A stretch of 64,000 nucleotides of DNA from Fidelibacterota bacterium (GCA_029936965.1 JAPYRG010000001.1:13588-77587), one strand, 5' to 3'. Numbered from the stretch's first letter, positions 8,240 to 64,000 are shown. Made by a program: numbers and translations. The notes: generated from the sequence alone by a model not told the origin.

Positions 8240-9583
8240 TTACAAAATTGCAAAAGAAAAATCATCTTTTACTTTTCCCACTATTCTATTGAAGCGCTTA
8301 TCAGACTTTAAAGCGTTTCTAATTTTATTGCAGGCGTGTAGCGCTGTTGTGTGGTCTCTTCCCCCAAAGTGCATACCGATTGTAGACAGAGACAAACCAA
8401 GAAGCTCTCTACAAAGATAAACAGCGATCTGTCTGGCTTCTGCAATTTCTTTTCTTCTGCTTGGACCAACAATATCGTCCGAACGAATGTTGGTCAAGTC
8501 CGCTACGCGGTTAATAATGTCTTCAGCTGATATGTCAGCAGAAATTCCATCCCCCAACCGTTCTTTTAAAACTTTTTTAACAAGTGGAAAATCAATATCA
8601 ACCTGCGATAGCGATGCGTGCGCAAGAAGGCGAATAATAGTGCTTTCTAGCTCACGCACGCTGTTTTTCAAATGCATTGCGATAAACTCGATCATATTGT
8701 ATGGCAAATCCAATCCGTTTATTTCCGATTTTTCCATTAAAATAGCTACGCGGGTTTCATAGTTCGGTGGCTGCACATCTACAGATAAGCCCGATTGAAA
8801 ACGGCTTAAAAGCCGGTCTTGAAGGCCTGACATCTCGCCCGGGTATCTATCTGCTGTCATTACGATTTGTTTTCCTAGTTGGTATAATTCATTGAATGTG
8901 TGAAAAAACTGTTCCTGCGTTTGTTCCTTTTTTTGAAAAAATTGTATATCGTCAATTAACAAAACATCTGCTTTTCTATAAGATTTTGAGAACTCTGCTG
9001 TGTTGTTTTTTTGAATAGAGGATATGAAATCAAGTGTAAATTTTTCACTAGAAGCTATCACAACTTTAGTCTTTGGTGATGTTTCGATTATTTCATTGCC
9101 AATCGCATGTAATAAGTGTGTTTTGCCAAGGCCAACACCGCCATATATAACCAGCGGGTTAAAAGCCTGGCTTCCGGGAGAGTCAGAAACTTTTTGTGCA
9201 GCTGCTTTTGCAAACTGATTATTTGGTCCTTCAATAAATCGTTCAAAACTATAGGAACTGCTTAGGTGTCGTGGTCGATTTTGGTTTTTTGCAACAATAG
9301 CGCTGTTGTTGTTTTCTGTTTCTTCAGCTTTAAAACCTTCACCAGATACAACAAGCTTCAAATTCTTAGTTTTTACACCCATATCGTTGATGGTGTTTAA
9401 AATATGTTTAGAATAATGTGTGTCAACCCATTCTGAGAAAAACTGATTGGGCACTTGCAACACCGCTCCCGCAACCCCAAACTCTAGTGCCTCAATGGGC
9501 TCAAGCCACGTATCAAACGTGTGCGCTGGTAGACGTTTTTTTAATTCGTCTTTTGTTTTATTCCAAAAGTCTAAATGATTCAT
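8240..9583 (-). CDS. dnaA: Chromosomal replication initiator DnaA
   Basis: DnaA binds 9-bp boxes at the origin and melts it in its ATP form. The ORF could open at a GTG at 9634, but the family normally begins with a short leader and then LDFWNKTKDELKKRLPAHTFDTWLEPI. The ATG at 9583 gives exactly that and a 447-residue protein of usual length. Visible elements are the N-terminal DnaB-interaction domain I, the AAA+ core with Walker A GGVGLGKTHLL and Walker B LLIDDIQFF, sensor-type RLLSRFQSGL, and a C-terminal domain IV with the DnaA-box-binding signature GGRDHTTALHA. The gene runs leftward, divergent from rpmH. Two perfect DnaA boxes sit in its leader, so autoregulation is likely. No good Shine-Dalgarno is visible because the leader is occupied by the boxes. 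Confidence 0.97.
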   Translation of the reverse strand: MNHLDFWNKTKDELKKRLPAHTFDTWLEPIEALEFGVAGAVLQVPNQFFSEWVDTHYSKHILNTINDMGVKTKNLKLVVSGEGFKAEETENNNSAIVAKNQNRPRHLSSSYSFERFIEGPNNQFAKAAAQKVSDSPGSQAFNPLVIYGGVGLGKTHLLHAIGNEIIETSPKTKVVIASSEKFTLDFISSIQKNNTAEFSKSYRKADVLLIDDIQFFQKKEQTQEQFFHTFNELYQLGKQIVMTADRYPGEMSGLQDRLLSRFQSGLSVDVQPPNYETRVAILMEKSEINGLDLPYNMIEFIAMHLKNSVRELESTIIRLLAHASLSQVDIDFPLVKKVLKERLGDGISADISAEDIINRVADLTNIRSDDIVGPSRRKEIAEARQIAVYLCRELLGLSLSTIGMHFGGRDHTTALHACNKIRNALKSDKRFNRIVGKVKDDFSFAIL

Positions 9584-9588
9584 AAAAG

Positions 9589-9635
9589 TTATCCACAGGT
9601 TATCCACATCCACCCGTATTGTTAATTTATGCACT
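9589..9635. promoter_or_regulatory. DnaA-box cluster upstream of dnaA
   Basis: Two perfect consensus boxes TTATCCACA at 9589-9597 and 9600-9608 are spaced 11 bases apart, about one helical turn. A weaker TTATGCACT is at 9627-9635. The cluster lies directly before the dnaA ATG and downstream of its predicted promoter, which fits DnaA autorepression. Together with the AT-rich stretch beyond it, the cluster is also a candidate core of oriC. Confidence 0.8.
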
Positions 9636-17800: not shown

Positions 17801-17851
17801 AAGGCCCTTAAGTGTGCAGAATATTTTATATATAACAAAAAGAATGATTAA
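14819..17851 (+). CDS. mfd: Transcription-repair coupling factor Mfd
   Basis: Mfd removes RNA polymerase stalled at DNA lesions and recruits UvrA. It has 1010 residues, somewhat shorter than the usual 1100-1170, with reduction mainly in the N-terminal UvrB-like module. The retained part reads RYVGEISDRGGVVDVFAVNTNNPIRIEFFG. A CarD-like RNA-polymerase-interaction domain is near residue 345-400 (KYKWGDYITHEDFGVGVYRG). The superfamily 2 translocase has Walker A GDVGFGKTEVA near 489-497, a DEEH box near 589-592 (most Mfd proteins have DEEQ), LSATPIPRTLQ and the TRG segment. A short C-terminal D7 domain ends the protein. It overlaps mnmG by one base. The second half is visibly more G/T-rich on the coding strand than the first. 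Confidence 0.95.
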   Translation: MDANSIKEKNIRKFFEDIQTKNKTSITSNSLKIITYAIKCLSDGCGLFIIGNNSYQLYKEVGLITSKKCLYIDTLYETEIYPKELNRGSIKETKKTEQRIGGGGIEIFFCEDNPGKRKVHVKNQSKKRIMIKKGDNISKKSFMNRAFDMGYENTDTTRYVGEISDRGGVVDVFAVNTNNPIRIEFFGNNIDTIRYYNPTSQLSIKEIESINIRSYKKSIKPIKSITYEEYIVNNKYKLLYVSVVENKYILSNSSGKIINNNHIINTTPITSNKKIEKLSKDSMLYLDKENAAVEKGVKIEKNRVMKNRFVYEKLNGGEVLKYKRSESYNYNYKTVQKDANIHKYKWGDYITHEDFGVGVYRGIISKNKYDYINIEYKDGSSVMVSTLKIHKICPYVGVPKPLLNSINDKKWNKKIQTTKTRIHEIINEMVVISNNRNRTRENEIVEDKYIDSELEKSFPYVETYDQKKAINDVYKDMSLPGLMDRIIIGDVGFGKTEVAIRASVRSVCSGGFVIVVVPTTILADQHYISFRGRLEKLGINVRMLSRFVSKKLRVKICNEILNKTVDILIGTHAVLSDDIPKKRLSLIVIDEEHKFGVAHKNKLLKIRQSLDVLTLSATPIPRTLQQSLLGIRDVTLIQTPPINRLPIKTRVLYKKWPHLKKLVERELFRDGQVYFVHNKIETLPVVYERLNSLFPNTNIAMAHGQMPSNELEEVVLSFFDGRVKILVCTSIIESGLDVTNANTILINDSHFFGLSQLYQIRGRVGRGNQQAYCYLIIPDINSLSKEAVERLRALESSVDLGSGYNIALKDLEIRGSGNLFGYEQSGSVDKVGYHLYCKMFEQALETDKRVEFGVGSLKISTFFNSSFEESYMPLSEDRIYFYQRLAVTLSRSGLDKIQSEVIDRFGVLSVGAKNMFYVSQLRIVYNMSLVSKVDINRRSVVLSLNKNESVFFSNYFERLIDNLSRAAINHSFKHGNHDSLYVEIPVGLNVAPIEKALKCAEYFIYNKKND

Positions 17852-17860
17852 TTTCGTTGA

Positions 17861-18637
17861 ATGCGTTTTCTATCTATATGTTTTTTATTGGTCTTTACTG
17901 TTTGTACAAAAGACGAAGAACCGCTTAACGTTGTTGCGCGCGCTGGTGGTGCGGTTTTGACCAAAGAAGGGCTCGCTTTTGCTTCGGTTTTTACAGAAAA
18001 AGAACGTTTGTCTTATATTGACAATTGGGTTAACACTGAACTGCTTTACCAGGCGGGTGGTCGTGTTGGTCTTGATAGAGACCTTTTATTAGAAACAAAA
18101 ATAAACCTGTATAGAAAAAAGTTGGTTGGTCAAGCTTATTTAGAAACAAAAATACAAGGAATGGTTTCTGTAACAAAAGATGAGATTAGAAATTATTATA
18201 TCGATAACAAAGCGGAGTTTAAAAGGTTAAAAAGCGAAGCAACTATAAACAGTTTTATTTTAACCGATAAAAAAGAAGCAAATCGCGTTAGGGCAAACCT
18301 TGAAAAACCCTCAAACAACAAAAAAAGAAACGAGATGTTCCAACGATATGGTGTTGTGGCTGAAACCTTTGCTGATGGCCTGCTAAACCCAAAAATAAAC
18401 AAAAAGGTGTTTGGTGCAAACAATAACAAATATATAGGACCAGTTGATTTGGGTGGAAAACTTTCTGTAATTGAGGTTATAAAAAGATATGAAAAGGGAA
18501 CTTATTTAGGGTTTGATAGCGTATATGATAAAATTTATTTATTGATTTATAAACGAAAGGCAGCAATTAAAACGCAGACTATAATTGACAGCTTAAAACA
18601 TGATAATGTTTTAGAAATAAACACAAATAACATATGA
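17861..18637 (+). CDS. SurA/PpiC-like periplasmic chaperone, probable lipoprotein
   Basis: A 258-residue exported protein. The N-terminus MRFLSICFLLVFTVCTKDEE looks like a lipoprotein signal with Cys15, although Val at the -1 position is not the ideal lipobox residue. The rest is helical and resembles the N-terminal chaperone part of SurA/PpiD proteins: a VARAGGAVLTKEGL start, DNWVNTELLYQAG, then a degenerate rotamase-like region (YYIDNKAEFKR, FADGLLNPKINKKVFGANNNKYIGPVDLGGKLSVIEV). It overlaps surA by four bases (ATGA), so the two are co-translated. A role in outer-membrane protein biogenesis follows from this pairing and is inference. Confidence 0.75.
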   Translation: MRFLSICFLLVFTVCTKDEEPLNVVARAGGAVLTKEGLAFASVFTEKERLSYIDNWVNTELLYQAGGRVGLDRDLLLETKINLYRKKLVGQAYLETKIQGMVSVTKDEIRNYYIDNKAEFKRLKSEATINSFILTDKKEANRVRANLEKPSNNKKRNEMFQRYGVVAETFADGLLNPKINKKVFGANNNKYIGPVDLGGKLSVIEVIKRYEKGTYLGFDSVYDKIYLLIYKRKAAIKTQTIIDSLKHDNVLEINTNNI

Positions 18638-19911
18638 AAGCTTTATACAAATCTCTAGCTATCTTTCTTCTTGTGTTTTTAACTGGACAGGAAAAACCTC
18701 AGGCGGTTGATGGGGTGGCCGCTGTTGTTGGTGAAAACATTATACTTAAAAGCGATGTTTCTCAGGTGGTTGGTATGACGGCGCTTCAGCGTGGTTTAGA
18801 TATTACAAAAGACGCGGATTTGTTGTTGAAACTTCAAGATGGGGTTTTAAGCTCATTAATAGATCAAAAAGTTATATTAGAAATGGCAAAATTGGATTCG
18901 ATTGAAATCAGCGATAAAGATGTTGAAAGCGCGCTTGACCAGCAGGTCGATGGTTTTATTATGAGGGCAGGAACAGAAGAGGTTGCTGAAACCATGTTAG
19001 GTCAAAGCCTGTCTGATTTTCGTAGAGAGTTTTGGTATGATATGCGCGATAGACTAATAACGGAACAATATCAACAACAATTAATTATGTCAGTAAATAT
19101 TAACCGGTCTGGTGTTGTAGGTTTTTATGAGGAATACAAAGACAGTCTTCCAGTGTTTCCTATAAAAATGAAAATCAGGCACTTACTTGTTCGTATTAAG
19201 GCTGGAGAAGAAAGCAAAAAAGCGGCCCTATCTGAAATCAATTATTTAAGAGAAAAAATACTAAATGGTGATTCTTTTTCTTCTATTGCGCGGGATTTTT
19301 CTGATGATCCTGGGTCACGAACGTCTGGGGGTTCTCTTGGTTATATCAAAAGAAACCAAATGGTTAAAGAATTTGAAACAACGGCATATACTCAAGAGTT
19401 AAACTCTATTAGTGAACCTATAGAAACAACGTTTGGGTATCACATTTTAGAAACAACGGAAAGGTCGGGAGAAAAAATTAAGGTAAGACATGTTTTAATA
19501 TCACCAGAGATAACAGAACGCGATGAATCTATTGCATATAAATATGCATTAAGCTTGCGTGATAGCTCAACAAGTCTTGGTCGTTTTAAAACCATGGTTA
19601 TCAACAAATCAGAAGACGAACAAACAAAAAAAATAGCCGGTGATTTAGGTTGGATTACACCAAGCAGTTCACCTATACCAGAAATATCAGAGGTTTTAGG
19701 TCTTCTAGAGGTTGGTGAGTGTAGCCGGCCTGTAAAATCTTCTTTTGGATATCATCTGCTTTGGTTGGAAGAGGTTCGGCTTGGGGGGCAAGCTTCTCTT
19801 GCTTTACATTGGACTGAAATAGAGGAAATTGCTTTAAATCATAAGCGTATGTTGTTTTTCAAAGAGTGGGTTGCGGAGGCAAGAAAAAATCTTTATATAA
19901 ATATCAATTAA
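18634..19911 (+). CDS. surA: Periplasmic peptidyl-prolyl isomerase/chaperone SurA
   Basis: SurA escorts unfolded outer-membrane proteins to the BAM complex. The protein has 425 residues with a signal peptide (LAIFLLVFLTGQEKPQA). The N-terminal chaperone domain starts with the family's DGVAAVVGENIILKSDV motif. Two parvulin-type rotamase modules follow. The first is complete, with MKIRHLLVRIK, ARDFSDDPGSRTSGGSLGYIKRNQMVKEFE and TTFGYHILE. The second begins KVRHVLISPE and finishes with SSFGYHLLWLEEVR. The start ATG overlaps the stop of the preceding SurA-like gene. It ends the rpmH-to-surA gene run, and a long non-coding gap follows. Confidence 0.93.
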   Translation: MKALYKSLAIFLLVFLTGQEKPQAVDGVAAVVGENIILKSDVSQVVGMTALQRGLDITKDADLLLKLQDGVLSSLIDQKVILEMAKLDSIEISDKDVESALDQQVDGFIMRAGTEEVAETMLGQSLSDFRREFWYDMRDRLITEQYQQQLIMSVNINRSGVVGFYEEYKDSLPVFPIKMKIRHLLVRIKAGEESKKAALSEINYLREKILNGDSFSSIARDFSDDPGSRTSGGSLGYIKRNQMVKEFETTAYTQELNSISEPIETTFGYHILETTERSGEKIKVRHVLISPEITERDESIAYKYALSLRDSSTSLGRFKTMVINKSEDEQTKKIAGDLGWITPSSSPIPEISEVLGLLEVGECSRPVKSSFGYHLLWLEEVRLGGQASLALHWTEIEEIALNHKRMLFFKEWVAEARKNLYININ

Positions 19912-59332: not shown

Positions 59333-59642
59333 TGGCATCTTTTAATAATACAAGTCATTATTTAAAGCTATATAATATATTATCGCACACCTTTAATTGT
59401 TTACAGATATCAATCTTATGATAAACATATATCACTATTGTAAATCTATATATTGATAAATATTACAATCCCTGTATTAAATATTATTAAATCTACCGAA
59501 GATCTTATCTGTAAATATTGCTATAATTATAATTTATATTTTTTTATCTATAACTATTATTTTACAGATCATACCCACTTTATGCTTATTTTTTTATGAA
59601 CCTTTATAAATATTACAATGTTAAAATTAATTTAAACAGTTC

Positions 59643-59670
59643 TTGTCAATTAATATATTTTTCATATAAA
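59643..59670 (+). promoter_or_regulatory. Predicted promoter of the giant wHTH/coiled-coil gene
   Basis: TTGTCA (59643-59648), a 16-base spacer and TATAAA (59665-59670). The predicted transcript has a leader of about 120 bases with two inverted repeats, ACTTATTATAAGT (59683-59695) and GGTATA/TATACC (59765-59782). A direct repeat lies just upstream of the -35 box at 59606-59619. Confidence 0.45.
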
Positions 59671-59764
59671 TTTGCTAAAATTACTTATTATAAGTGATTT
59701 TTTGCGGAGACCACATACTATTAATGAGCTATAAGCACCATATAAGAGGCTTTGGGTTAAATAA

Positions 59765-59800: not shown

Positions 59801-62800
59801 ATGGCCTCGGAACAAAAAGACATTTTTCGTATTGATAACATTAAATTGTTAAAGGTCATTTCTGACCCTATTCGTAAACAAATTATTGATGTTCTTTATG
59901 ATGAACCTCTGACAGCTTCTGAGATTGCTGATGAAATTAGTTTTCCCAAAGATAAAATTTATTACCATATAAAAAAATTACAATCTTCTGGAATTCTTAT
60001 TATAGCCGAATCAGAAAAAGTTAAAGGCATTACACAAAACAAATTTATTAACGTTGCTGAAAAATTTGAAATCGATGAATCATTGTTAGGAGATCAGCCG
60101 TCTCCACTTATAAAGAAATCATCAACTAAGACTATTGAAAAGAAACTTGACGAAAATTCCGATGCAGAGTCTATCCAGGATGATGTAGATGAAACGGAAT
60201 CTACTAAATCTGACGACAATCCCTTATTGGCTTCGCTATTAAAAGCAAAGGGAAAGCCGGCCGGTCAAATTCCAGATAGCTTCTCTACAACGGGGCAAGG
60301 TCAAATAGATGAGGGCACTCCACCACCACAAAGTGGCGATGGGCCTGTTAGAATTATTGCCGATCGTAGACGTGGAGGAGATAGACGCGCTACACTTGAA
60401 CAAAGAGTTGGTAAGGAACGTAGATTACGACAAAAAAGAAATTTTGAAGGTGGCGAAAAAAGAGAAGGAAAAGAAAGAAGAAAAGGTATTGAAAAGAGAG
60501 TATTATCTGATAGAAGAAAGGCTATTGATAGAAGGCTAGAAGCAGAGAAGAAAAAAAAGAAATCACTCGAATCTGCTGCTCCGATTAAAAGATATAAGCC
60601 GAAAAAACAATCCGCTAGAATCCTAGAATCAGTAAAGATGAATTTAAACGGCTTAAATGAGGCGATGACCTTTATACATACAGGTGATAATGTAACTTTT
60701 CTACAGGCTACAAGAAAACTTGACACCTTTGAAATTCAACAAACAAAGATTTACGATCTTCCTTATCAATATAATGGACATGCAATTAAGACACTTCCTG
60801 ATTTAATCAAACATGTATATGCAAACTATGTAGATCCTAAAAAAACCAGAAGCCATTATTTAGCGATGTATTCGACTAGATATAATTATGAGATGACTTT
60901 TGTTGCTACACCTGAGGGTGGTGCAAAAAAAGATTTTAAGGACTACTTATACTATAATCTAACTAAATCGTACAATTTAAAATTAGAAGAGTCTATTGTT
61001 GATTGGTCTTTTAATGATAAATATGAAAATAATGCTGTAGTTTGCTACTCCGCACTCGGGGCGACCATTCAAAATGACTATACCAACCTAACCGCCGCAG
61101 GGATACAGCCCAGGTATTCCACCGCTTTCCCAAAAATATTACACAATATATATAGCTATGGAGCCGGGACTACTGGCTCGGGTAATGCATTAATAATATA
61201 TATAGATGAGAGAAGAACGAATTTAGCATTGGTTCAAAATCAGCAATTAGTGGAATCAAGATATTTTTGGATTGGTGTAAGGGATTTTTATTTACCTCTT
61301 TGTAAAATGTTTAAAGTTGGACGAAAGGTTATTGATGTCGATAGAAAACTCGCAGAGGATTTTCTCCTTAATTATGGAATAGAAATGGATGAAAGCATTA
61401 TAGATACAGGAGAAAGCATACCTTGGATAGATGCTCAACAGCTTCTAGGAACACCAGTAGCTAAATTTTCAAAGGAACTTGATAATTCAATGAAATATTT
61501 TTCTGACGTAAGAAGCACGATATCAAATAAAATGTTAGAAATTGACAATGTCTATCTTGGCGGCCCGGGCAGCCACATCAAAAATATAAGCACTATAGCC
61601 CAAAGAACTGTTGGAAAAGCAGTGGAAGACATTGATGGATTATATGCAGACCTGTTTAAGGCTATGAACGTAACAAAGCAGCAGAAAAAGTTATTAAAGA
61701 ATAGAGATTCCATGTTGCAGGATCGCGAAAGAATTACTTCATCAATTAATAGGTCTCGTGATGATGTAATCCAATTAGATAAGATGATAAGAGCCTTTAA
61801 GGATCCAGAGGCAATCGCTGTTGAGATAGATAAGCAAATGCGCAATAAGCAGACATATTTCAAGGATATTGCAGTAGCGAATAATGCATTAGAAACAAAT
61901 ACCCAGGATATTAATCACTTAACTACGGAATACAATAACGAAGAAAAGAAGACCAGAGCAGATCTTGAGAAGGCAGATAAAGATCTTAAAAAACAGCAAA
62001 GTAAGGCAATGCCTATATATACTGAGGTAGATCTGATTGAAAAAAAGGTTGAAAAATTAAATGCGCCAATTAATGCGAAGAAAAAGAAATCTGCTGTTAT
62101 AGAGAAAAAATTACGCATGAAGCTTAAAGACGTAAGTCGAGAAAAAAAATTAGAACAACAGGAGTTACGCAAATTAAAAGATAGCATTAGTCTTTGTGAA
62201 TCAAGAATTAAAGATATGGAAAAAGATATTGAGCATCATATTGAAGAACAGGATGAAACAACTGGAGATTTAAATTTTCAATTTAGCCAACGGGATGAGT
62301 ATGAAATAAAGCCGAGGAAACGGCAAGTGGTGTTTAAAAAACAACAACGAGAGATAGATCAGAAAGAGTTTGAATTAAGAAAACAAAAGAAAAAGACCAT
62401 AATAGATATGAAAGTCGATGCTGGGACTATTCAGGATCTTAGCAAAAGGTTGGGTATTATAAATGAGCGAATAGAAGCGGTGAATCATGAATTAAATGAT
62501 GCAGAATTTGAATTTGAGAGTTGCTCATCGGATTTACAGGAAAATTTGTCTGCTATTGATAAAAATGAAGCAGATTTGCGTACGGCAGTAAGCGATTATG
62601 AAAAAACGCGCTTGGAGCATGACGCCACGCTACGCTTTATAAGAAAAAAGATTGATAAGCTTGATAATAAAGTAAACAAGATAATTGAAGCATATGAACA
62701 AGCACAAGGCAAAGAAGAAGAACATGAAGCTGAAAACGCCGCAACAGAGCTATCAGTTAAGTATCAAATACAGTCCTTCAAAAACGAAATAGGGAAAATG

Positions 62801-64000
62801 TCTTCATCCAGAGATAAAATAGTTACTTCTAAAAATAAACAAGAGTCAGTTATTAAATCAGATGAAAAGAATATTAAGCATAATAATAAAAAATTATCAT
62901 CTTTAAACAAGGATCAGGATTCCTTAGATAATGAGATTGAAATACTGGAAGCTGATCAAACAACTGCCACCGTAACGATCGATGCGCTTTCCTTATCAAT
63001 AAATGATCGAAAGCAAGAAATTGAAAAAATACAAAAAATCTATTTTTTTGAATTAGAAACAGCAAATAAAGTAATAGCATCTGCAAATTGGAGATTACCA
63101 GATTTTCGCAGAAAACTACCAACAAGCGTATCGGAGACTGAAAGCTTAGCTGATCGATTTAATAATGTAAGCTTACAAGAACAAGATGAGAGGATCATTT
63201 ATGCTAATATAAATGAATCAATTAATAGAGTAAACGAAATGACGCCTAAGTTAGTTCTTATAAAAGAACATGTTGGTGAATTAATTGCTTTAGACGGTGA
63301 ACTCTTAGCATTAGAAAAGGATCAAAAATCCAAAGAAACAACGATTAACAACATTGATGATAAAATTGAGAAATTACATAAGAAGCTCTCTGATTTATCT
63401 GCAAAGATAGAAACCTTAAGTAAAGATATAAAAGACAGAGAAATACGTCATAAAATAGAAAGAGACTCTCTTGTTCTTACACAAAAAAGATTAACAAAAG
63501 GCGAAACAGATCTTGAACGATCACAGGAACATTATAGTGGTTTAAAAGAAATAAAAGATAAAGCAATAAAAGACAGAGATGAGAACATAGCAGGCTTAGA
63601 AAAACAATTAGAGGAATTAAACAATCAATATGAAAACCTGCGAGACCTACAAAAAGAACATAAAGAAACCCTTAACGAACTTTTAAATATTCGTAAATCA
63701 ATTGCGAACCAAAAGGCACGTATTAACAATATAGAAAAAGAAGAGTCGGAACAAGAAAACGGATACAGTCGGTTAAGTACTTTACTTACATCTCAGATAG
63801 ACCAACTAAATAACTCGTCTGAAAGAATTGAGTCAGATAATCGCGAGTTGGAGCTTCAGATTGTATTAGAAAGAACAAGGATAAGCGAGCTTAAGCCAGA
63901 AATCAATGAGTGGACGAAAGAGAAGAGATCCCTACAAAAAGAACTTGATTTAATATCAAAACAAAAAATATCATATGCGGAAACCACGAATAAGAATAAA
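59801..64000 (+). CDS. Giant protein: ArsR-like winged helix, basic linker, PilM-like actin fold and long coiled coil (3' end beyond window)
   Basis: The frame is open for all 1400 codons to the window edge. Residues about 18-80 are an ArsR-type winged helix-turn-helix (VISDPIRKQIIDVLYDEPLTASEIADEISFPKDKIYYHIKKLQSSGIL). Residues about 100-180 are acidic and Ser/Gly-rich. About 181-253 are extremely Arg/Lys-rich (DRRRGGDRRA and several KERR/DRR units). About 271-625 resemble PilM/GspL-type actin-like domains: a mid-domain strand GNALIIYIDERRTNLALVQNQQLVESRYFWIGV and an adenosine-type motif VYLGGPGSHIKNI near 585-597. The phosphate-2 motif is DERRTN instead of DxGxxxT, so ATP hydrolysis is doubtful. 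From about 625 onward the chain is a heptad-rich coiled coil like SMC or myosin tails. There is no signal peptide. A DNA- or envelope-linked structural protein is conceivable; the true function is unknown. Confidence 0.85.
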   Translation, partial: MASEQKDIFRIDNIKLLKVISDPIRKQIIDVLYDEPLTASEIADEISFPKDKIYYHIKKLQSSGILIIAESEKVKGITQNKFINVAEKFEIDESLLGDQPSPLIKKSSTKTIEKKLDENSDAESIQDDVDETESTKSDDNPLLASLLKAKGKPAGQIPDSFSTTGQGQIDEGTPPPQSGDGPVRIIADRRRGGDRRATLEQRVGKERRLRQKRNFEGGEKREGKERRKGIEKRVLSDRRKAIDRRLEAEKKKKKSLESAAPIKRYKPKKQSARILESVKMNLNGLNEAMTFIHTGDNVTFLQATRKLDTFEIQQTKIYDLPYQYNGHAIKTLPDLIKHVYANYVDPKKTRSHYLAMYSTRYNYEMTFVATPEGGAKKDFKDYLYYNLTKSYNLKLEESIVDWSFNDKYENNAVVCYSALGATIQNDYTNLTAAGIQPRYSTAFPKILHNIYSYGAGTTGSGNALIIYIDERRTNLALVQNQQLVESRYFWIGVRDFYLPLCKMFKVGRKVIDVDRKLAEDFLLNYGIEMDESIIDTGESIPWIDAQQLLGTPVAKFSKELDNSMKYFSDVRSTISNKMLEIDNVYLGGPGSHIKNISTIAQRTVGKAVEDIDGLYADLFKAMNVTKQQKKLLKNRDSMLQDRERITSSINRSRDDVIQLDKMIRAFKDPEAIAVEIDKQMRNKQTYFKDIAVANNALETNTQDINHLTTEYNNEEKKTRADLEKADKDLKKQQSKAMPIYTEVDLIEKKVEKLNAPINAKKKKSAVIEKKLRMKLKDVSREKKLEQQELRKLKDSISLCESRIKDMEKDIEHHIEEQDETTGDLNFQFSQRDEYEIKPRKRQVVFKKQQREIDQKEFELRKQKKKTIIDMKVDAGTIQDLSKRLGIINERIEAVNHELNDAEFEFESCSSDLQENLSAIDKNEADLRTAVSDYEKTRLEHDATLRFIRKKIDKLDNKVNKIIEAYEQAQGKEEEHEAENAATELSVKYQIQSFKNEIGKMSSSRDKIVTSKNKQESVIKSDEKNIKHNNKKLSSLNKDQDSLDNEIEILEADQTTATVTIDALSLSINDRKQEIEKIQKIYFFELETANKVIASANWRLPDFRRKLPTSVSETESLADRFNNVSLQEQDERIIYANINESINRVNEMTPKLVLIKEHVGELIALDGELLALEKDQKSKETTINNIDDKIEKLHKKLSDLSAKIETLSKDIKDREIRHKIERDSLVLTQKRLTKGETDLERSQEHYSGLKEIKDKAIKDRDENIAGLEKQLEELNNQYENLRDLQKEHKETLNELLNIRKSIANQKARINNIEKEESEQENGYSRLSTLLTSQIDQLNNSSERIESDNRELELQIVLERTRISELKPEINEWTKEKRSLQKELDLISKQKISYAETTNKNK

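Follow-up and report, generated by a model that had tools for sequence, protein, structure and literature searches.

A giant protein joining a winged helix, a PilM-like actin fold, a long coiled coil and a probable PilN-type domain heads a pilus/secretin operon in Marinimicrobia

Near the end of a 64,000-nucleotide stretch of a Fidelibacterota bacterium genome (GCA_029936965.1; G000:C25:13588-77587), hereafter called the window, begins a gene for a giant protein of 2,785 amino acids, the stop codon of which lies beyond the window (L002:389-8746 = G000:C25:73388-81745). In order, this protein comprises an ArsR-type winged helix-turn-helix (wHTH), an acidic and then Arg/Lys-rich disordered linker, a degenerate PilM actin fold, and a coiled coil, followed outside the window by the last PilM helix, a PilN-type LNILP motif, one transmembrane (TM) segment, and a probable PilN-type periplasmic domain. 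The frame is real, conserved, and unusual. Judged from this domain order and from the PilO, PilP-like, secretin, response regulator, PilB, PilC, and pilin genes that follow, the giant is an inner-membrane PilM-PilN (GspL-like) platform subunit of a second machine of the type IV pilus/type II secretion (T4P/T2S) type. With moderate confidence, we propose that this platform subunit would also be a membrane-anchored autoregulator that binds the promoter of its own operon and carries a folded hairpin arm.

Results

The source genome (2.14 Mb, 96.7% complete, 50 contigs) is probably a metagenome bin. The reading frame stays open to the end of the window, and the adjoining DNA gives a stop at L002:8746. 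A congener, G005, has the same order of wHTH, linker, actin fold, and coil up to the edge of its contig, with 83% identity over the actin domain; this shared fusion shows that the frame did not arise by misassembly. Ten complete giants from other genomes also have their coil at this position, and one of these is a single-cell genome (AG-404-J18). A first-pass annotation of the window, made from the sequence alone, had taken the domains for parts of one chain, and the recurrence of the fusion in relatives bears this out.

The N-terminal domain scored above the Pfam cut-offs of both HTH_20 (E=1.7e-10; 41.1 versus a cut-off of 27) and HTH_5/ArsR (9.8e-6; 25.8 versus 22), and the profile of the wHTH family matched the solved regulator PH1932 in the PDB at 3.8e-9, in agreement with the ArsR-type DNA-binding domain of the first-pass annotation. 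In the alignment of the family, the recognition helix, FPK(D/E)KIYYH(I/L)K, is nearly invariant and is the most conserved part. The Arg/Lys-rich segment also proved genuine, lysine and arginine making up 39% of residues 186-262, and this basic linker is missing from the compact and f8 forms of the family. The linker of one compact form (L022:3134-6094, genome G055) holds near-identical acidic repeats (QEIPDTTVLTQEDEDLGEDSGSADSDEHEITDDP).

For the actin domain, single-sequence searches against protein families and the PDB gave no match, and profiles were needed. A 13-sequence profile of the domain had Myxococcus PilM (3jc8) as its best PDB match (2.6e-5), and HHalign paired the domain with canonical PilM homologues at P=97.3%. 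An AlphaFold model of residues 262-660 (predicted local distance difference test (pLDDT) 75.5, predicted template modelling score (pTM) 0.71) adopted an actin fold whose ten best PDB matches in Foldseek were all PilM (5eou 6.6e-16, 2ych 8e-14), with FtsA next and MreB further down. Intermediates form a continuous series: L032 and L024 match Pfam PilM_2 at 5.5e-33 and 3e-18, respectively, and align along their length both with the compact wHTH forms and with the giant. The nucleotide motifs are intact in L032 (LDIGSYAIK, IDIGHETT, and CGG), and the corresponding segments of the giant read FIHTGDNVT, IYIDERRT, and LGG, so that the degenerate phosphate motif noted in the first-pass annotation stands as well. 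In alignment with canonical homologues, intact phosphate and adenosine motifs for ATP were not found in the giant, and because these motifs are lost, its PilM part is probably a PilM-like, non-nucleotide pseudo-ATPase.

In the coil-less proteins L032 and L024, the PilM_2 match reaches profile positions 337 and 336 of 340 and ends in ATALATPAGISI and YTINFALA, respectively. This terminal helix is homologous to residues 2564-2575 of the giant, on the far side of the coil, where the last PilM helix lies. Compact homologues have 42-49 residues between the GSHIKN-type core and that helix; the same interval spans 1,374-1,387 residues in ten family f7 giants and 1,979 in the giant described here. Because the compact homologues join PilM directly to its last helix, the coil is an insertion inside PilM, before that helix. 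It measures about 1,940 residues, of which 63% are predicted as coiled coil at P>0.5, as compared with 17% for composition shuffles, 34% for the available sequence of the genome's own SMC, and 0% for PilQ and PilB; only the comparison between sequences counts. The first-pass annotation had recognized an SMC-like coil and set its length at more than 770 residues, too short a value because less than half of the coil is visible in the window. In all of the f7 giants compared (10/10), a central break leaves 717-719 residues on its N-terminal side and 655-669 on its C-terminal side, and these arm lengths are fixed even though identity over the central segment is just 33-47% for most pairs. In an AlphaFold model of the central 481 residues of the coil built with nine relatives (pLDDT 88.6, pTM 0.37), the only interruptions of the helices are two-residue kinks and, at the midpoint, a region with a 20-residue gap; the nearest solved folds in Foldseek are Rad50, Wadjet JetC, and the cohesin and MukB elbows. 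That the insertion leaves from and returns to a single compact domain speaks for a hairpin, and the coil is probably an antiparallel one of SMC type, hinged at its centre.

After the coil come a helix (NYMANIGLLLDA), the LNILP motif at residue 2579, and the TM segment at 2598-2616. The final 170 or so residues of the giant align with PilN domains; Pfam PilN misses the giant itself, and the aligned region scores 25.7 bits in L032 (cut-off 22.8) and below the cut-off in L022 and L023. PilM-like and PilN-like domains thus occur in one bitopic chain, as in GspL.

Downstream of the giant, in frames that overlap or abut, lie the genes named above, ending in prepilins. Domain matches identify PilB (T2SSE with MshEN), PilC (T2SSF), and the pilins (N_methyl), whereas the PilP-like protein is assigned only by position, size, and weak SctD-type matches. 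The PilM-like domain therefore stands in an operon with PilN/O/P/Q, PilB, and PilC. A separate canonical PilM (a frame of 386 amino acids) and PilT are encoded on contig C10 and another PilB on contig C28; therefore the giant belongs to a second machine. Two neighbouring proteins of the pilin cluster (L002:16131-17213 and 17804-18931) have Laminin_G_3 (LamG) domains, one of them beginning as a prepilin, and these domains suggest a carbohydrate-binding pilus tip.

In most f7 genomes, the giant, PilO, a small PilP-like frame, and the secretin are followed by a PKD-like protein and a large repeat-rich "ISYQG" protein, and most f7 loci have no PilB, PilC, or pilin within the 5.3 kb downstream that were examined. 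L037 retains the response regulator, PilB, and PilC, and L038 retains them as far as its contig reaches. The loci L039-L047 (e.g. L041:15051-20310), in which the giant, PilO, PilP-like, and secretin genes stand without nearby PilB, PilC, or pilin genes and precede the PKD-like and ISYQG surface protein genes, possibly represent a secretin machine that lost its pilus. A third platform type in f7 (L103:8647-11529 and L102:8958-11861) is an ExeA/GspA-like AAA ATPase fused to a PilM-like domain, about 960 amino acids long, and adjoins a protein resembling a CHASE2-type sensor.

A scan of 84,980 species returned 14 wHTH-PilM loci, from Marinimicrobia/Neomarinimicrobiota or placed in the same order, and four further loci with the wHTH and coil only; the scan pattern favours the wHTH and may have passed over distant forms. 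The wHTH profile matches 29 of 245 genomes of the phylum. Among the genomes scanned, the wHTH-PilM platform is restricted to Marinimicrobia. The forms with a coil inside PilM make up one clade (100/100), and a separate gain of the coil by the giant's own genus is not favoured. The coil also occurs in a wHTH-coil paralogue of 1,917-1,928 amino acids (L050:3158-8911, L051:9962-15715, L052:1530-7316, and L086 in genome G144), which has about 1,800 residues of coil and neither PilM, a TM segment, nor PilN. The wHTH of this paralogue branches inside the coil clade with moderate support, its gene is located behind the same kinds of PKD, ISYQG, and LamG genes, and G144 encodes both the giant and the paralogue. 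In family f8 (G043 and G129), the frames reach about 2,590 amino acids. That of G043 (L049:5012-12769) is a 2,585-residue wHTH-PilM-PilN protein in which roughly 1,600 extra helical residues with a 67-residue period precede the wHTH; its helical repeat differs from the coil inserted in PilM, and it is a second, independent giant form.

Upstream of the wHTH-family genes, TTACAA is the most enriched hexamer (55 seen versus 9.7 expected), and TTACAA/TTGTAA occurs at 10.4 per kb as compared with 1.7 per kb in the remaining intergenic sequence of these loci, the relatedness of the sequences making the p-value too small. Of 18 upstream regions, 14 hold the palindrome TACAAnnTTGTA with no more than one mismatch, where 1.14 would be expected, and 7 hold a perfect copy (0.04 expected). 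Its carriers are the f7 giants (e.g. TACAATATTGTA, the palindrome element of the L040 promoter), the compact f5 and f8 forms, the coil-only forms, and a 445-residue wHTH protein of G169. Because the palindrome precedes proteins sharing only the wHTH, the wHTH is the common factor. In G043, the palindrome precedes a ParA-like ATPase gene (L049:4073-4945; Pfam AAA_31 1.6e-28) that leads the operon and lies between the palindrome and the giant. Genome-wide, there are 0-2 exact sites per genome, those near wHTH genes lying within their promoters; sites this rare rule out genome-wide binding through the palindrome, and autoregulation is therefore favoured over chromosome-wide binding. The features of the locus are collected in Table 1. 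By eye, the position of the promoter is conserved with TTGTAA-N-ATAAATT of homologues. After the promoter, a conserved, hairpin-like transcribed leader, ATTACTTTTTCCGAGGTAAT...TG(T/C)GGAGTC, is found here (window 59679-59720) and upstream of L037-L047; its 8 consensus pairs showed no covariation, only one-sided changes, and Rfam gave no leader match in the window or in L041.

Table 1. Features of the giant gene and its upstream region (positions in the window)
Feature	Position	Strand	Basis
Degenerate copy, TACAATGTTAAA (one half-site kept), of the operator-like palindrome TACAAnnTTGTA	59614..59625	+	
Sigma70-like promoter, TTGTCA-N16/17-TATAAAT	59643..59671	+	By eye on alignment
Transcribed leader stem AATTACTTATTATAAGTGATT, then conserved GCGGAGAC	59679..59699	+	Alignment, 8 consensus pairs
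Giant wHTH-PilM-coil-PilN gene, first 1,400 of 2,785 codons	59801..64000	+	Open reading frame to window end; adjoining sequence
ArsR-type winged helix, residues about 12-90	59834..60070	+	Pfam HTH_20, family alignment, PDB PH1932
Low-complexity linker, residues 91-262, motif NPLLASLLKAKG and basic RRRGGDRR/ERR repeat tract	60071..60586	+	
PilM-like actin-fold domain, residues about 272-622, phosphate motifs degenerate	60614..61666	+	Profile, AlphaFold/Foldseek, alignment
Coiled-coil insertion (residues 623 to about 2560), first 778 residues; rest outside window	61667..64000	+	

Discussion

With PilM and PilN of type IVa pili (PDB 2YCH, 5EOU, 3JC8), the giant shares the actin-like fold, an LNILP/LNLLP motif before a single TM segment, probably the PilN-like periplasmic domain, and the gene order before PilO, PilP, and secretin, but it is one chain, its nucleotide motifs are degenerate, a wHTH stands at its N terminus, and a coil lies inside PilM. 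As in GspL, a PilM-like cytoplasmic domain and a PilN-like periplasmic domain form one bitopic chain; GspL is not known to have a DNA-binding domain or a long coil, and the operon of the giant also has pilins and LamG proteins. PilMN has been called an orthologue of GspL (PMC4471445). A long, probably antiparallel coil hairpin that is inserted in a globular head and has a central hinge recalls SMC, Rad50, MukB, and Wadjet JetC, whereas the head of the giant is an actin fold in place of an ATP-binding cassette (ABC) ATPase, and neither SMC_N nor SMC_hinge matched anywhere in the 2,785 residues. A true SMC is encoded elsewhere, and a role as SMC replacement was rejected, as an SMC hinge was found in 11 of 13 genomes tested. 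The winged-helix fold, the conserved recognition helix, and a palindromic candidate operator are shared with ArsR/SmtB-type regulators (HTH_20, PH1932), from which the giant differs in that its wHTH is fused to a membrane-anchored machine subunit. One-component regulators of the ToxR/CadC type have a cytoplasmic winged helix, one TM segment, and a periplasmic domain; the giant is built likewise, but its periplasmic domain is part of a machine and its cytoplasmic part holds PilM and the coil.

In the reading that we prefer, a dimer of the wHTH would bind the palindrome within the promoter of the operon encoding the machine, one molecule would thereby link the envelope machine to the promoter of its own genes, and the membrane-anchored autoregulator may sense assembly of the PilM-N-O-P-secretin complex and couple gene expression to it. 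The arm, as a folded hairpin, would have an estimated length of about 145 nm in this protein and of about 100 nm in relatives, at a rise of 0.15 nm per residue; it would probably extend across the cytoplasm, its hinge holding either another partner or the hinge of a second copy, and it may give DNA bound at the PilM end room to keep contact with the nucleoid. Several observations weigh against this reading. In this genome and its congener, only a half-site of the palindrome is kept (two mismatches), and the palindrome is lacking upstream of the homologous wHTH proteins L079, L081, and L082. The pTM of the coil model is low, as are its Foldseek TM-scores (about 0.2), which can be expected for flexible rods, and a test for mirror symmetry among the coil breaks gave no more than a suggestion of it (r=0.39 at 1586.5, as against 0.43 about another centre).

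The first-pass annotation had proposed a DNA tether to a polar or envelope structure. This idea holds in kind, as the protein ends in a TM segment and a probable PilN-type domain, its gene leads a pilus/secretion operon, and a conserved operator-like palindrome lies upstream of the homologues; it fits as a link from promoter to pilus base. A stronger version, which we regard as rather unlikely, is that the giant is primarily a tether or positioning device, the wHTH and basic linker holding the nucleoid, rather than a single operator, at the machine and the arm spacing or polarizing the pilus base, with regulation secondary. It is consistent with the basic RRxGDRR linker, the paralogue that has the wHTH and coil without PilM and PilN, the ParA-like ATPase as first gene of the G043 operon, and weak SMC-like matches to LmuB and JetC in the coil in profile libraries of defence proteins. 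The gene also lies about 50 kb from dnaA (window 8240-9634, minus strand, with a sign change of the GC skew nearby) and about 90 kb from it in G043; as for origin proximity being a conserved trait, among the genomes tested dnaA and the giant gene share a contig only in these two. Against holding the nucleoid at large stand the rarity of the palindrome, the promoter location of the sites near wHTH genes, and the absence of the basic linker from the compact and f8 forms. The suggestion that the protein organizes the chromosome near the origin found no support, the palindrome being rare and a normal SMC present.

Another explanation concerns the arm, and we think it unlikely: the coil may be an extended parallel dimeric rod of about 290 nm that serves the cytoplasm as scaffold or ruler, and the last PilM helix would then be swapped or detached. 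The coiled-coil content is real, and the low pTM means that the global fold of the coil is not established, both of which suit such a rod; the insertion point within PilM with the last helix still conserved, the one long break at the centre, flanked by arms of fixed length, and nearest folds that are mostly intramolecular antiparallel coils argue instead for a hairpin. Some wHTH domains act as interaction modules, and it is less likely again that the wHTH of the giant is such a repurposed protein-protein module that does not bind DNA, the palindrome serving another regulator. That regulator could be one of the stand-alone wHTH relatives present in the phylum, but the recognition helix is the most conserved part of the domain, and the palindrome tracks the wHTH across four architectures sharing little else. 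An assembly artefact fusing two genes, conceivable in a probable metagenome bin of 50 contigs, is refuted in practice by the identical architecture in independent metagenome-assembled genomes and one single-cell genome.

In literature covering few subscription journals, we found no pilus or secretion platform subunit with a specific DNA-binding domain and no actin-fold domain interrupted by an SMC-like arm that can reach about 1,900 residues. The undescribed system envisaged in the first-pass annotation is thus a machine of a known kind (T4P/T2S), the subunit architecture of which seems undescribed, its closest parts coming from three separate families. Tentatively, the giant might represent an SMC-shaped DNA tether of a new class that dispenses with an ABC ATPase. 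Such a tether, with a winged helix for DNA binding and a head-and-hinge coiled-coil arm built on an actin-fold PilM head, would physically couple specific DNA to a trans-envelope pilus/secretin machine and would also exist as a free wHTH-coil form from which the machine parts have been lost.

The giant turns up in several families of a marine phylum that is for the most part uncultured. If confirmed, our preferred reading of it as a platform subunit and membrane-anchored autoregulator would allow a direct test of whether an envelope machine can report its assembly to its own promoter with no diffusible regulator in between, and the hairpin would provide a second chassis, an actin fold rather than an ABC ATPase, for evolving a long folded arm.

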